A stretch of DNA of 64,000 nucleotides from Crocinitomicaceae bacterium (lineage in GTDB: Bacteria > Bacteroidota > Bacteroidia > Flavobacteriales_G > Salibacteraceae). The stretch lies in NCBI GenBank assembly GCA_002713215.1, contig PAVO01000006.1:1-64000 (forward strand), given 5' to 3'. The notes under the pieces are model-generated. The model saw only the letters and a list, made by a program, of their open reading frames with translations, was not told the origin of the DNA and did no database searches. Positions within the stretch are counted from its first letter, which is position 1. Each line of letters starts with the position of its first letter. The translations under genes were made by a program, and so were the position numbers. Positions 1 to 27,785 of the stretch are shown here, in pieces.

Positions 1-3000
1 CTTCGGAGGTTCGAGCCAGACGAATGTTTTATGTAAGGGAGCGAGTACAGGAAGTATAACCGTAGTACCGGCAGGTGGCACGGCACCATATCCTACGTTT
101 GCGTGGAATCCGAATGTAAGTACAACCGCCTCAGCGACTAATTTATCGGCCGGAAATTACACGGTAACCGTGACAGACAACAATGGCTGTACCAACGATA
201 CCACATTTACGATAACTGAACCAGCGGCTGGTATGACTTCATCAATGGCTATCCTGGATACAATCAATTGTAAAGGAGGCAATAACGGGCGAGTTTCTGT
301 TACTCCAGCAGGAGGTACAACTCCTTATACCTACAATTGGAGTGCTGGAAATGGAGGTGTAAATGATTCAATTTCAGGGGCATTGTCAGCTGGAAAGGTG
401 GTAGTTACTATTACTGATGCCGGAGGCTGCTCAATAAAGGACAGTATTACACTATCGGAGCCTGCCACTGCAATTACCGGAGTATTTGTCGATAAAAAGA
501 ATCCAACTTGTACGGGATCTGGAAATGACGGTTCAATCAAGATTTCAGTTTCGGGAGGGACCCCTTCCTATACTTATACCTGGACAGGAAGTGGAACATC
601 AAGTGGTCCGACTGATTCTACAAGGTCCAATATGACCGCTGGACCTATCTCCGTATTAGTTACTGATTCTAAAGGATGTACAGATACCTTTACAGATACA
701 TTGGTTTCTCCCGGAAGCCTAAGCGTTACATTTACAGATACAATTCTACCTACTTGTTATGGTGATACCAATGGTAGACTAATTGCTACTCATACAGGTG
801 GAACTGGTACCGTGTCTTATAGCTGGACTGCGACCCAAGGTATGACTGGAGCTACTGATTCTATTTGGGTAAATGCTAAATCTGAAACCATTACGGTCGA
901 AGTAACCGATACGCTGGGTTGTAAGGCAAGTGTTTCTATCAACCTACCTCAACCTGATTCGATACTCATCAACGTAAATGTCCTAAGTCATGTACTTTGT
1001 AAGGGAGATAGTACCGGAAGCGTAAGGGCGGTTGTTACTGGTGGAACGCCTGGATATACTTACAATTGGAATGGTATTGGAACTCCAGTTACCGGTGCTG
1101 ATAGCATGCGTCAAAACATTTGGGCGGGTAATTTTACACTTACAGTTACTGACTCTAAAGGTTGTTCAAATTCTAAACCATACACCATAACTGAACCAGC
1201 ATTAGGAATTACTGGAGTAACGTTTGCAGATACTGTTTTATGTAGGTCTTCTACAACTGGAACTGGTAGAATTGTTGCTTCAGGTGGAACCAAGCCCTAT
1301 ACCTATAATTGGAGTGCCGGTAACGGTGGTACTAATGATTCTGTAAGTACCAATATGCCGGGTGGCCCTTTTACTGTAACTGTGACCGATGCAGGTGGAT
1401 GTAGCCAGGTTTTTATGGATACAATAACGTCACCGGATAGCCTTAAAGGAACATTTACTCAAATTACCCAACCTGGTTGTGGTAGTTCAGGGGCATTGGG
1501 CTCTGTGACTGTTACTCCTACCGGGGGCACGCCAAATGCTTCAAGCCCTCTTTATTCCTATACATGGATTGGTGGTGGAATTAACGGCTCAAATGACAGT
1601 ATCAGGATAAACATTCCTGCAGGTACCATCAGGGTTGTCATTACCGATAAAAATGGTTGTATGTCAGACACACTTAGTCAGGCATTGAATGCACCAGGTA
1701 ACCTAAACCCCACATTCTCATTAATTCAGGATCCAAAATGTAACGGTGATTCTACTGGAAGTGTTATTGTCACTCCAACTGGTGGAACACCCGGATATAC
1801 TTATGTGTGGAACCTGGGGGTTTCTGGTTCTTCTGATAGCATTAGAAATTCACTTCCCGGAGGAGTACAAATTGAGGTAATTATTACCGATGCTGCATCC
1901 TGTGTTGATACTGCAAAAATTACATTGAACAATCCGGTTGGTATTAGTTTGACATTTACTGATAGTACTCTTCCTGCTTGTGCCGGTGATACCAACGGGA
2001 CAATTACGGTAACACCATTAGGTGGACTTAAACCATATACTTATAGTTGGTCAAATGGGGATAACGATAGTATTGCCAATAATGTTGGAGGTGGAATATT
2101 CTATAAAGTAACGGTTACAGATGGTAATGGATGTACTTCAATAGATAGTCTGCAAATTTCTGACCCTGCGCCAATGACGGTGAGCTTTACGGATAGCGCC
2201 AGTATTGATTGTAACGGAGGGTCAAATGGCAGCCTTACCATAACACCAAGTGGTGGAACGCCGATATATGGATATGCCTGGACGGCTTCCAGTGGTGCGA
2301 CAGTTAGTACCGGAGCATCAGATAGTATTGCAACTGGCTTAGTGGCTAATGTATTGTATACCGTAACTGTGACTGATGGTAAAGGGTGTAAGGCAAGTGC
2401 ATCTAAATCTATGGACGAACCGAATCCAATAACAGCTGTCGGCGTAGGAGGTGCTGCAAGGTGTGGTGCTCCAAATGGAACAGCTAGGCTTATTTTTATC
2501 AGAGGTGGTACACCTGGTTATACCGTTTCGTGGGATTCAGCAGGAACTTCTTTTGGAACTGGTAATCCAAAAACGGGATTATATGCAGGGGTATATACTG
2601 CTACGGTAACTGATTCTAAAGGCTGTACAGAGACTTTCCAGGTAAATGTTTCAAACAGACAAGCCCCTATTATTATTTTGGATAGCTTACAAGATGCATT
2701 TTGCGAAGGTGTTTGTAGTGGAGGAATAGATATAAGAGTAATCTCGTTTGGTGGAATTCCTGTGACTTACAAGTGGTCTAATGGAGATACAACTCAAGAC
2801 ATTGTTAAACAATGTGCTGGTGGGTATACGGTTACTGTTACCGATACCAATGGTTGTATTCGAGTTCAGAACTTTACGATTGGTGTTCAGGATACTTTGA
2901 ATCTGAGTTTGTCAACCACACCTTTATCCTGTAATGCTACAGTCTGTGATGGGGTGGTTTCAGCCACTCCAACAAAAGGATTTCCTCCTTATTCTTATGT

Positions 3001-25097: not shown

Positions 25098-27122
25098 ATG
25101 ACTAAAAGCTTTAAAAGACATCTGGTAACTTCGGCACTTCCTTATGCAAATGGGCCATTGCATTTGGGGCATTTGGCTGGTGCTTATTTGCCAGCCGACA
25201 TATATGTTCGATACCTGAAGTCCAGGGGTGAAAATGTTGCCTTTATATGTGGTTCGGATGAGCATGGGGCCGCCATTACCCTTCGTGCAAAAAAAGAAGG
25301 TAAAAGCCCCCAGGAAATAGTAGATAACTACCATCACATTAACAAAAAGGCATTTGAAGATTTTGGAATTAATTTCGATTATTATGACCGAACCTCTTCA
25401 AAGACCCATCATGAAACAGCACAAGACTTTTTTAAGACCCTGGATACCAAAGGTTGTTTTGATGTTCAAAAAACCGAGCAATACTTTGATGAAGAAAATC
25501 AGCAGTTTTTAGCGGACCGCTATATAAGCGGGGAATGCCCCAACTGCCATTCTGATAGAGCTTATGGAGACCAGTGTGAAAACTGTGGAACCGCTTTAAG
25601 TCCAAAGGAATTAATTAATCCAAAATCTACCATCAGCGGAAATTCACCGGTTCTAAAAGAGACTTCTCATTGGTTTTTGCCGATGGAAAAGGAAGCCGAT
25701 TGGTTAAAAGAGTGGATTGTAAATGGTGTTTTGGATGGTAAACAGCATCACAGTTCAAAAGAGTGGCGAAAGCATGTGGTAGGTCAATGCTTGTCGTGGA
25801 TTGATGGAGGATTGCATTCCAGAGCTATGACCAGGGACCTGGATTGGGGGGTAAAAGTTCCCGCTGCGGGAGCTGATGGTAAGGTACTATATGTATGGTT
25901 AGATGCCCCCATTGGATATATTTCAGCGACAAAAAAATGGGCAGAAGGTAAAGACAATCCCTGGGAAGATTATTGGAAATCCGAAGATACCGCCCTTGTG
26001 CATTTTATTGGGAAAGACAACATAGTTTTTCACTGCATAATTTTTCCAATTCTCTTGAAGCTACACGGTGGATATAATCTACCTGTTAATGTTCCGGCAA
26101 ATCAATTTCTGAATTTAGAAGGGGACAAGATTTCTACCAGTAGAAACTGGGCCGTATGGTTGCATGAATACTTGGAAGATCTTCCTGGTCGACAAGATGA
26201 GCTTCGATACGTTCTAACTTCAATAGCCCCGGAAAGCAAGGATAGCGAGTTTACCTGGAAGGATTACCAGGCTCGGGTAAATAATGAGCTGGTTGCTATT
26301 TTGGGGAATTTTGTAAATCGGGTAATTGTTTTAACCAATAAGTATTACGATGGGCAAGTACCTGAAGTAAAAAACCTGGAAAGTATTGATGAACAGGTTT
26401 TAAATCAGGTTGAGAGTCATGAGAGGCTGGTGGGCGAGAAGTTGTTGAGCTTTAAATTTAGGGAAGCTCAGGCTGAAGCTATGAACATTGCCCGGGCTGG
26501 AAATAAATACCTGGCCGATGAAGAACCCTGGAAAAAGATAAAAACTGACCCGGAACGAACGAAAACCATTATGGCGGTTGCCATTCAGATATGTAAGAAA
26601 CTCGAACAGGTATTTGTACCTTTTTTGCCAGAGACGTCCGATTCGTTGAATAAGATGTTTGGAAATTCAGACATGGTGGTTCAAGGCAATTTGCTTTTTC
26701 AGAAGGTAGAAGACAATATTATTCAGCAACAAATAGATAAGCTAAAACAACAACAAATGCTCCAGGCTACAGAAAAATCTACAACTCCACAGAAGGAGAA
26801 TATTTCTTTCGATGAGTTTGTAAAAATGGATATCCGAGTAGGGACCATTTTAGAAGCAGAAAAGGTTCCTAAGGCGGACAAATTACTGAAATTAATTGTG
26901 GATACCGGAATTGATAAGAGAACAGTTGTATCCGGTATTGCTGAGCATTATACGGCGGAAGAAATTATTGGTAAAAAAGTGAGCGTTCTGCTTAATTTAG
27001 CGCCCCGGAAAATTCGAGGCGTTGAGTCTCAGGGAATGATTTTAATGGCAGAAAATCAGGAAGGAAAATTAGCTTTTGTTTCACCAGAGAAAGAAATGGA
27101 TTCCGGTTCGGAAATAAGATAG
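25098..27122 (+). CDS. metG: methionine--tRNA ligase
   Basis: The 674-residue class I synthetase charges tRNA-Met in the cytosol. The ATP-site HIGH motif is H22-LGH, and the KMSKS loop reads KISTS near residue 344. Four Cys of the zinc knuckle lie near 146-162 (CPNCHSD, CENCGT). The C-terminal 105 residues form an EMAPII/Trbp111-type tRNA-binding domain ([11 protein letters not shown]) that dimerises MetG. Full length for the MetG1 type. It ends 35 nt before the tRNA-Arg/GIY-YIG element. Confidence 0.97.
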
Positions 27123-27157: not shown

Positions 27158-27182
27158 AAATGCCCCCATAGTTCAATGGATA
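27158..27182 (+). repeat. upstream direct repeat: 5' fragment of tRNA-Arg
   Basis: These 25 bp are identical to 27454-27478. They contain 4 nt of flank plus nucleotides 1-21 of the tRNA-Arg gene (GCCCCCATAGTTCAATGGAT + A). The rest of the tRNA is missing: the sequence switches at 27183 to a GC-rich palindrome. This looks like the original tRNA 5' end, separated from its body by an insertion. Confidence 0.9.
27162..27182 (+). pseudogene. truncated tRNA-Arg 5' end
   Basis: Nucleotides 1-21 of tRNA-Arg(CCT) only: acceptor 5' strand, first half of the D stem, and D loop. It cannot fold as a tRNA. Confidence 0.85.
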
Positions 27183-27202
27183 CCTGCCTGCCGGCAGGCA
27201 GG
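27183..27202. repeat. 20-bp perfect GC-rich palindrome
   Basis: CCTGCCTGCCGGCAGGCAGG is its own reverse complement and is strikingly G+C-rich in an A+T-rich region. It abuts the broken tRNA end and precedes the GIY-YIG ATG by 12 nt. It may be the terminal structure recognised or carried by the element; whether it is dispersed in the genome cannot be seen here. Confidence 0.85.
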
Positions 27203-27214
27203 GAATACTAAGAG

Positions 27215-27484
27215 ATGCATTACATATATGCCATAAAGAGTGAAAAAGACGGACGAATCTATGTTGGTATGAGCATGGATTACCAAAAGAGAGTGATTGA
27301 GCACAATTCAGGTAAGACAAAGTCAACCAAGGGATATCTTCCTTGGAAGCTAATTTATGTCGAAAGAGTATTGACAAGAATCGAAGCACGTACTCGTGAA
27401 AAATTTCTTAAAGCAGGAAGTGGTAAAGAATTTTTAAAGGGACTAGATTTGCAAAATGCCCCCATAGTTCAATGGATAGAATAG
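27215..27484 (+). CDS. GIY-YIG nuclease-family protein overlapping tRNA-Arg
   Basis: The 89-residue single-domain protein of the YhbQ/UPF0213-like size has YIY (3-5) and YVG (16-18) as the GIY and YIG strands. R26, H30 and E62 are the expected catalytic residues, and STKGYLPWKLIYVE is a family motif. The domain ends near residue 74. Codons 82-89 (APIVQWIE) and the TAG stop are tRNA nucleotides 1-27, in frame from the first tRNA base. The family includes homing and repair-type endonucleases that cut DNA. The position suggests self-spread into tRNA genes, which is an inference. Confidence 0.88.
   Translation: MHYIYAIKSEKDGRIYVGMSMDYQKRVIEHNSGKTKSTKGYLPWKLIYVERVLTRIEARTREKFLKAGSGKEFLKGLDLQNAPIVQWIE
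27454..27478 (+). repeat. downstream direct repeat inside intact tRNA-Arg
   Basis: 25 bp identical to 27158-27182, with starts 296 bp apart. This copy is continuous with the complete tRNA and supplies its 5' end. Confidence 0.9.
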
Positions 27485-27529
27485 AAGTTTCCTAAACTTT
27501 AGATGCAAGTTCGATTCTTGCTGGGGGTA
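27458..27529 (+). tRNA. tRNA-Arg (anticodon CCT)
   Basis: A complete cloverleaf of 72 nt without encoded CCA. The acceptor GCCCCCA pairs with TGGGGGT (one G-U). The D stem is GTTC/GAAT, and the anticodon stem GAAGT/ACTTT has loop TTCCTAA. The T stem GCAAG/CTTGC has loop TTCGATT. Anticodon CCT at 27491-27493 reads AGG. The discriminator is A27529. Its first 27 nt also code for the end of the GIY-YIG protein, and its native upstream promoter is now separated from it by the 296-bp insertion. Confidence 0.93.
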
Positions 27530-27538
27530 CTTGTTAGG

Positions 27539-27570
27539 AAAGCTCCACTTTGTGGGGCTTTTCTTTTTTA
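27539..27570 (+). terminator. intrinsic terminator after tRNA-Arg
   Basis: AAAGCTCCAC (27539-27548) pairs with GTGGGGCTTT (27552-27561) with one G-T mismatch pair and is followed by a T-rich tract. Confidence 0.8.
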
Positions 27571-27785
27571 ACGGAACTGGGGTAACTCTCTTAAAATATT
27601 CCTCTAGGTCAATGGATATAAGGGATAGAGTTTGGTTCGACTTTTTTGATCTTTTCTCAATTGGAAAAGCATTTACGTATTTAACTAATGAAAATACACC
27701 GGTGCGCCATTTTTACTATTCCATTTAACCTCATGTATTCTCTCAAAATCAGGAACGGACATATCAATCCTATAAGAAGAAGAAA

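Follow-up and report, generated by a model that had tools for sequence, protein, structure and literature searches.

A bare GIY-YIG nuclease gene splits a tRNA-Arg(CCT) gene in the window (the whole stretch of 64,000 nucleotides that was analysed) and leaves a complete tRNA gene rebuilt beside a broken copy, and related units recur beside many other tRNA genes. Each element is made up of a stand-alone GIY-YIG gene and a duplicated segment of the host tRNA gene, in most cases together with a GC-rich inverted repeat. The data show insertion, duplication, a junction palindrome, a preference for particular targets, selection on the protein, tandem arrays and decay. On balance, these units probably form a family of minimal homing-like elements, in which the nuclease would cut one site in a tRNA gene and repair would copy the element in; movement of the elements between cells is likewise presumed.

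The split tRNA-Arg(CCT) gene and its empty sites

The features of the locus are collected in Table 1. The flanking gene, which we take from its protein to be metG, ends 39 nt before the tRNA stump. The first-pass annotation of this sequence had described a 296-bp unit, made of a palindrome and an 89-codon GIY-YIG ORF, that splits the tRNA gene at 21/22 and is bounded on both sides by 21 tRNA nt plus 4 nt of flank. The repeat scan, the ORF list and the PF01541 match bore out this description: the two repeat copies are identical over 25 bp and 296 bp apart, no other repeat that the scan gave on the two sides of the ORF exceeds 11 bp, and the palindrome directly follows tRNA nt 1-21. The palindrome has a single match in the window when up to 2 mismatches are allowed, with 0.00 expected in shuffles. 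The downstream gene, the sole tRNA detected in the window by ARAGORN, is complete, as had been claimed. The upstream copy had been read as a 21-nt stump; tRNA nt 1-21 are present there, but GAATA (tRNA nt 22-26) continues the copy past the palindrome, which thus sits within a longer tRNA copy. The restored tRNA 5′-end encodes the final residues of the ORF, and the stop codon lies within the restored tRNA. The candidate box TAGATTTG, which fits a motif (TAnnTTTG) that we take to be the Bacteroidetes −7 promoter box, is a putative element that could drive transcription of the restored tRNA.

Table 1. Features of the interrupted tRNA-Arg(CCT) locus in the window
Feature	Position	Strand	Basis
metG, methionyl-tRNA synthetase (presumed name), left flank	25098..27122	+	ORF list; tblastn of the product against relatives' loci
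Left direct-repeat copy, 25 bp: 4 nt of flank and tRNA-Arg nt 1-21, interrupted original 5′-end	27158..27182	+	repeat scan
20-bp perfect palindrome CCTGCCTGCCGGCAGGCAGG, between tRNA positions 21 and 22	27183..27202	.	motif search
GAATA, tRNA nt 22-26, interrupted copy continued	27203..27207	+	5-nt tail mapping
GIY-YIG nuclease ORF, 89 aa; domain about 27215-27442	27215..27484	+	ORF list; PF01541 E=1.8e-13
TAGATTTG, candidate −7 promoter box	27444..27451	+	fits TAnnTTTG
Right direct-repeat copy: 4 nt and tRNA nt 1-21, rebuilds the tRNA	27454..27478	+	repeat scan
Intact tRNA-Arg(CCT)	27458..27530	+	ARAGORN; Rfam RF00005 at L007, the same place
Terminator-like hairpin with T run, 3′ of the tRNA	27540..27570	+	by eye

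A tRNA-Arg(CCT) gene was located in 25 of the 35 genomes of the family, and several of these loci include metG. In three relatives (L138, L139 and L141), metG is followed after 39-41 nt (distances by eye) by an uninterrupted tRNA-Arg(CCT), and the position of the left repeat copy in the window corresponds to the tRNA start of these empty sites. Since in relatives the tRNA-Arg(CCT) gene lies equally far from metG and is uninterrupted, the arrangement in the window is an insertion. Loci without the insert, which the annotation had proposed to look for, thus exist, and the stump proved to be tRNA sequence in the relatives. Empty sites were also found in a second genus, at tRNA-Glu(TTC): one genome (G185) carries an array of 428-bp units there, and in all eight congeners in which the tRNA-Glu was found (the comparison covered 11 genomes, two of which gave no match) the gene is single and uninterrupted, with no GIY-YIG match in the locus.

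Among the 25 distinct tRNA-Arg(CCT) loci, a GIY-YIG gene was called by profile in one, that of the window. Eight others have a tRNA fragment within 420 bp and the remaining 16 have none, by a loose criterion of at least 12 nt in which calls of 12-15 nt had no chance control; the fragments of L154, L155, L156 and L158 are of 13-15 nt only. One of the 16 fragment-less loci (L143) shows by eye an apparent GIY-YIG ORF end directly upstream, uncalled by the profile. In L150, L151 and L154 the tRNA fragments bear GC-rich palindromes with no ORF (L154 by eye), and they look as fossils of such elements would. Downstream of the intact tRNA in the window, a weak tRNA-Arg-like stretch (27600-27641), of which 13 of 14 nt match tRNA nt 8-21, may be what remains of an earlier insertion into this gene.

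Recurrence and anatomy of the elements

The source genome holds ten GIY-YIG places, three of which are of the window kind: one at tRNA-Pro, where the repeat is 23 bp long, and two at tRNA-Val and tRNA-Arg, where it is 25 bp long. The survey, which comprised 35, 42 and 395 genomes, two rounds of fetched places and 80 named loci, with loci repeating one place counted once, yielded 218 GIY-YIG matches, which lie in 182 of the 184 distinct loci. A same-strand tRNA gene lies within 500 bp of 170 of the 218 matches and an opposite-strand one of none; 48 have no tRNA within this distance. This co-orientation of ORF and tRNA suggests co-transcription. A fragment of the adjoining tRNA lies across the ORF in 139 matches, and the targets comprise 27 anticodon types; in a chance control on an earlier count of 140 fragments, tRNAs for other amino acids reached the same score in 13.8. 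Most survey loci came from similarity searches with the window ORF or with an alignment of elements (A1), which conditions their tRNA adjacency on the family. Because the loci had been chosen by protein similarity to the elements, the count was repeated with Pfam PF01541 alone in seven genomes, covering 40 of 41 places (one place had no locus): 13 of the 27 small ORFs have a same-strand tRNA within 500 bp, ten have a tRNA fragment, and none has an opposite-strand tRNA only; two further places, L003 and L330, adjoin tmRNA. A 342-aa frame counted as large in this control resembles another tRNA-Leu element. The tRNA-linked ORFs with a duplicated tRNA segment that the annotation had anticipated elsewhere are therefore many, in the source genome as well as in others. 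Its compact-element reading gains from this recurrence and from the empty sites, and none of the findings that it had listed as contrary turned up, but the unit is not a one-off: it belongs to a large family with two mirror geometries. The recurrence across Bacteroidota and some other phyla points to a widespread family of minimal mobile elements.

Relatives with a same-strand tRNA within 500 bp, and in some cases a fragment, also occur in records of the Omnitrophota, WOR-3, Stahlbacteria, Margulisbacteria and Patescibacteria type (L189, L190, L198, L200, L225, L228, L231, L232, L235, L237, L239 and L244), some of which may be mis-binned MAGs. A phage origin was rejected: none of the 18 stretches that matched a pattern in the viral_contigs scan was confirmed as a relative, and phages yielded remote relatives only, at 33.8% or less.

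The elements are about 0.3-0.45 kb in size and occur in two forms. Form A (92) restores the 5′ side of the gene: the interrupted tRNA copy comes first, and the intact tRNA follows the ORF. Form B (47) is its mirror image, with the intact tRNA ahead of the ORF and the interrupted copy behind it, and restores the 3′ side. Restoration of a 5′-end, as first described, therefore stands for the window but is not general. In many form A matches the intact tRNA starts a few nt after the ORF. A GC-rich inverted repeat interrupts most of the mappable tRNA copies, and an outer stem of at least 5 bp is present in 72 of 109 distinct junction inserts, with 1.4 expected from shuffles. The commonest junction is exactly 21/22 (44 loci), and others include 9/10, 12-14, 26/27, 37/48-50, 43/44, 48-50 and 56/57; at some loci the hairpin replaces a whole tRNA arm. 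Among the distinct 21/22 inserts, 33 of 45 start with CCTGCC and end with GGCAGG around a varying middle. A single fixed insertion site for the whole family was rejected, as the junctions vary, and the rule that the shorter side is restored holds in 117 of 138 only. Junction mapping, the chance control, trees, insert stems and fragment matching used a 218-row set that includes one duplicate (L216, the same as L013), leaves out the place L037/L128 (no tRNA near) and holds L031 in a shortened copy; the 21/22 count, the 117/138 rule, the range of repeat lengths, the tail mapping and the exact tandem arrays were likewise obtained without L037/L128 and with the shortened L031. The survey totals given above include both of these places in full and count L216/L013 once.

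In some relatives the tail of the interrupted copy reaches nt 62-78 (L191, nt 22..78 with 55/57 identical; L195, nt 22..62 with 41/41). These near-whole copies indicate that the tRNA gene has been duplicated, that a palindrome breaks one of the copies, and that the ORF lies between the two. The fragment fits the resident tRNA better than same-anticodon tRNAs elsewhere in 92 of 132 cases, with 31 ties and nine worse, the window being among the nine (21 vs 22). That fragments fit the resident tRNA best suggests duplication in place and not a carried piece; the pattern would fit duplication in place or homing among close relatives, and not a foreign tRNA end brought over a long distance. At L120 and L115 the duplication takes in upstream sequence with a promoter-like box, on the motif assumed above. 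Among 86 form A matches, 11 have a box of this type ahead of the restored tRNA, where 1.5 would be expected, and a promoter box on every element was accordingly rejected.

The same order of parts could also arise by site-specific integration of a circle with a tRNA segment, the palindrome acting as attachment site and the GIY-YIG protein taking the place of an integrase. One crossover of a circle made of promoter, tRNA segment, palindrome, tail and ORF would yield the observed order, and arrays too; the unit, however, holds no integrase, and the direct repeat ranges from 15 to at least 68 bp with no fixed core, so that we hold this route to be quite improbable.

At least two GIY-YIG matches were found in 26 loci, several of which are exact tandem arrays. 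Runs of up to five matches were seen at L101 (G026:C35), L109 (G001:C1) and L129 (G249:C1), the last with four units spaced 322 bp after tRNA-Pro. Such arrays would be expected of a host-serving device in which the nuclease promotes duplication or amplification of tRNA genes, for example against tRNA-cutting defence or toxins, and a phage precedent is described in PMC13096335, where SegB-driven tandem amplification of the tRNA region in T6 defeats Septu. The arrays found here, however, multiply the ORF and the broken tRNA copy and not the intact tRNA, 26 of the 218 matches have in-frame stops, and ORF-less fragments exist, which makes a service to the host very unlikely.

The nuclease, its targets and the dispersed palindrome

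The window protein is a bare GIY-YIG domain, and GIY-YIG is the sole Pfam model matched at E≤0.001. The structure model predicts one compact domain over residues 1-79 (pLDDT 95.3) and no separate DNA-binding module. Residues Y5, Y16, R26, H30, N31 and E62 are invariant across 43 sequences, and Y5, Y16, R26 and H30 align, if the profile register holds, with Y6, Y17, R27 and H31 of I-TevI, presumably its catalytic residues. The nearest solved structures are those of UPF0213 (1zg2 and 1ywl) and SLX1, followed weakly by I-TevI; 1zg2 was matched at E=3e-10 in the profile search and ranks first in Foldseek (E=4.7e-4). The window protein is also similar in size to these UPF0213-like small GIY-YIG proteins, for which we assume the name YhbQ. 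Homing-endonuclease models gave weak partial matches (PHROG 314, E=0.0015; PADLOC HEase, E=0.014). The dN/dS ratio is 0.04-0.26 in pairs with usable dS and 0.48 in one near-identical pair, values that place the element ORFs under purifying selection.

A tree was built from 124 of 140 proteins, rows with stops, of less than 65 aa or identical being omitted; it rests on few columns and has many weak forks. On this tree, the target amino acid requires 32 changes vs 61.8 with shuffled labels, the junction class 40 vs 59.6, and the form (A or B) 21 vs 35.8. The window element groups with others in an open set of 16 rows (SH-aLRT 93), in which hosts with tRNA-Arg(CCT) elements belong to Sphingobacteriales, Marinilabiliales, Bacteroidales, Chlorobiota and Omnitrophota, and which also includes three tRNA-Leu elements and one at tRNA-Arg(ACG). 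Host relationships leave a trace as well: among 40 named rows, host order requires 15 vs 20.9 changes and isoacceptor 14 vs 22.9, and among 34 rows host family requires 10 vs 17.1, a signal at least as strong as that of isoacceptor. Host phylum gave no signal among the named rows. For 66 named rows, most of them Arg, tracking of the amino acid was not above shuffles (14 vs 14.9, with a minimum of 14), and by anticodon 27 changes were required vs 41.9 shuffled. Because the tree tracks the host too, inheritance within host lineages or spread among neighbours contributes to the pattern. The preference of nuclease lineages for particular tRNAs suggests that the target may be recognized by sequence.

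These data also bear on a passive association, in which ordinary slippage would duplicate tRNA genes and small GIY-YIG genes would come to lie between the copies by chance. Unequal exchange alone could give direct repeats, but the strand bias of 170 vs 0, the 27 anticodon types, the exact 21/22 junctions and a tree that tracks the target all speak against it; it is disfavoured by the existing counts, and we find it scarcely credible.

In 33 of 295 genomes (G047, G075 and 31 others; sampled loci L245-L294), the palindrome CCTGCCTGCCGGCAGGCAGG recurs as a dispersed repeat of up to 43 copies, and its reversed control had 0 among the matches listed. A palindrome specific to tRNA genes was therefore rejected, since the sequence is dispersed in some Bacteroidia. 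Many of the sampled copies in G075 lie within another dispersed repeat, and two of the seven sampled in G047 lie within tRNA-Arg-like sequence (both by eye). Of 28 palindrome loci, four are within 700 bp of a tRNA and two have a GIY-YIG gene, one of these being the window; at the palindrome of the source genome at C47:16204, the surrounding 1.7 kb contains no tRNA or GIY-YIG gene. The palindrome of the elements may have been borrowed from the dispersed repeat.

Dispersal on this scale would be expected if a structure-specific nuclease of the UPF0213/SLX1 kind acted on hairpins and on the single-strand tRNA cloverleaf, mobilising dispersed palindromes in the REP/RAYT style, with tRNA arms as good substrates that collect palindromes and nuclease genes. 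The closest solved structures are of this kind, most palindromes border an arm or a loop and can take the place of an entire arm, and one tRNA copy (L230) holds three palindromes. Against this stand the few palindrome loci near a tRNA or with a GIY-YIG gene and the tRNA preference of nuclease lineages, which suggests sequence recognition, and we regard the structure-specific explanation as rather unlikely. A related proposal, which we likewise think unlikely, is that a bare GIY-YIG system guided by structure or by a carried tRNA inserts palindromes in tRNA arms and copies itself by target duplication, the dispersed Bacteroidota palindromes being its non-autonomous offspring; were it true, essential single-copy RNA genes would serve as permanent homes into which insertion can be repeated. 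At L218 and L230, a junction insert of about 103 bp at 21/22 has terminal inverted repeats (CCCGCCCGACC...) around about 70 bp and is MITE-like.

Proposed cycle and related systems

In the homing-like reading that we favour, the nuclease would cut the tRNA gene at one loop or arm position, which would be 21/22 in the D-loop for the window lineage. The break would then be repaired by recombination with an element-bearing copy, a presumed pathway that would duplicate part of the tRNA gene and leave the anatomy observed, one complete copy and another interrupted by the palindrome at the cut site. The complete copy would keep the cell alive, so that the cell would tolerate insertion even where the tRNA gene is present once. 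Tandem arrays would then arise as insertion is repeated or by unequal exchange, and palindrome-bearing tRNA fossils by later decay of the ORF; both patterns are observed, and their order is presumed. Several observations count against this reading: the catalytic domain is bare and closest in structure to UPF0213 and SLX1, with I-TevI a weak match, palindromes occur far from tRNA genes, the fragments point to duplication in place, the tree tracks the host, and 48 of the 218 matches lie without a tRNA within 500 bp. In addition, the rebuilt tRNA retains an uninterrupted site, and the elements thus lack the protection from their own nuclease that homing elements usually have.

Elements with tyrosine integrases that target tRNA genes restore the gene with a segment that they carry or duplicate, and the present elements are like them in that an intact tRNA is rebuilt beside a fragment. 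They differ in that the window unit, at 296 bp in total, has no integrase, and in that the elements rebuild either the 5′ or the 3′ side with a variable repeat. REP/RAYT systems, which use an HUH tyrosine transposase, share the dispersed palindromes beside a small nuclease gene, whereas the elements use a GIY-YIG protein and target tRNA genes. Group I introns can be compared by the GIY-YIG nuclease gene within a tRNA gene and by a weak endonuclease-model match (NCBIfam TIGR01453, E=0.0014, 18.7 bits with a cut-off of 56), but the tRNA of the elements is rebuilt at the DNA level and not spliced. In eight of the ten own-genome loci (L001-L008, with the window as L007), no intron family reached the gathering score of Rfam; on this ground an intron reading was rejected, in agreement with the first-pass statement that the unit is not a known intron.

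Free-standing GIY-YIG nucleases beside tRNA genes are already known in T4-like phages, segB being placed between the tRNA-Arg and tRNA-Ile genes in Table 1 of PMC2988022. PMC13096335 states that SegB cuts inside tRNA genes at the motif RAWTSGAAC, which by our reading of its letters would be the reverse complement of the T-loop, that SegB of phage T6 drives tandem repeats of the tRNA region, and that a similar open question of target retention is posed by the authors for SegB. The likeness lies in a free-standing GIY-YIG nuclease gene among tRNA genes, for which cutting by the element nuclease is presumed. The element gene, however, lies at an interrupted site between broken and intact copies of one tRNA and not between tRNA genes as segB does in that table, and the elements rebuild a tRNA copy, carry a palindrome at the junction, reside in bacterial chromosomes and have as their protein a bare domain, which in the window measures 89 aa. 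The open-access literature searched gave no account of bacterial tRNA genes split by GIY-YIG elements. What is apparently new is thus the combination of a nuclease-only unit of 0.3 kb that lies at the interrupted site itself, its residence on bacterial chromosomes, its two mirror forms and the junction palindrome.

If the homing-like reading is right, very small protein-coding mobile elements have gone unnoticed beside tRNA genes in many Bacteroidota, their visible trace being small GIY-YIG ORFs whose tails can run into the tRNA, and this would explain a class of tRNA fragments and of tRNA-derived protein tails. The elements would form a bacterial chromosomal parallel of phage SegB, and would offer a compact system in which to study how a single tRNA-gene position is located by a nuclease that shows no DNA-binding domain, and how cells withstand repeated cutting of that gene.

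GIY-YIG genes also adjoin tmRNA in three genomes (L003 in G000:C25, L126 in G030:C6 and L330 in G171:C1), and the association with RNA genes therefore goes beyond tRNA. In the source genome, a further GIY-YIG gene (L004, G000:C34 20475-20678) lies 118 nt after a tRNA-Ala with no detectable repeat, and its leader resembles by eye that of the tmRNA-linked L003.
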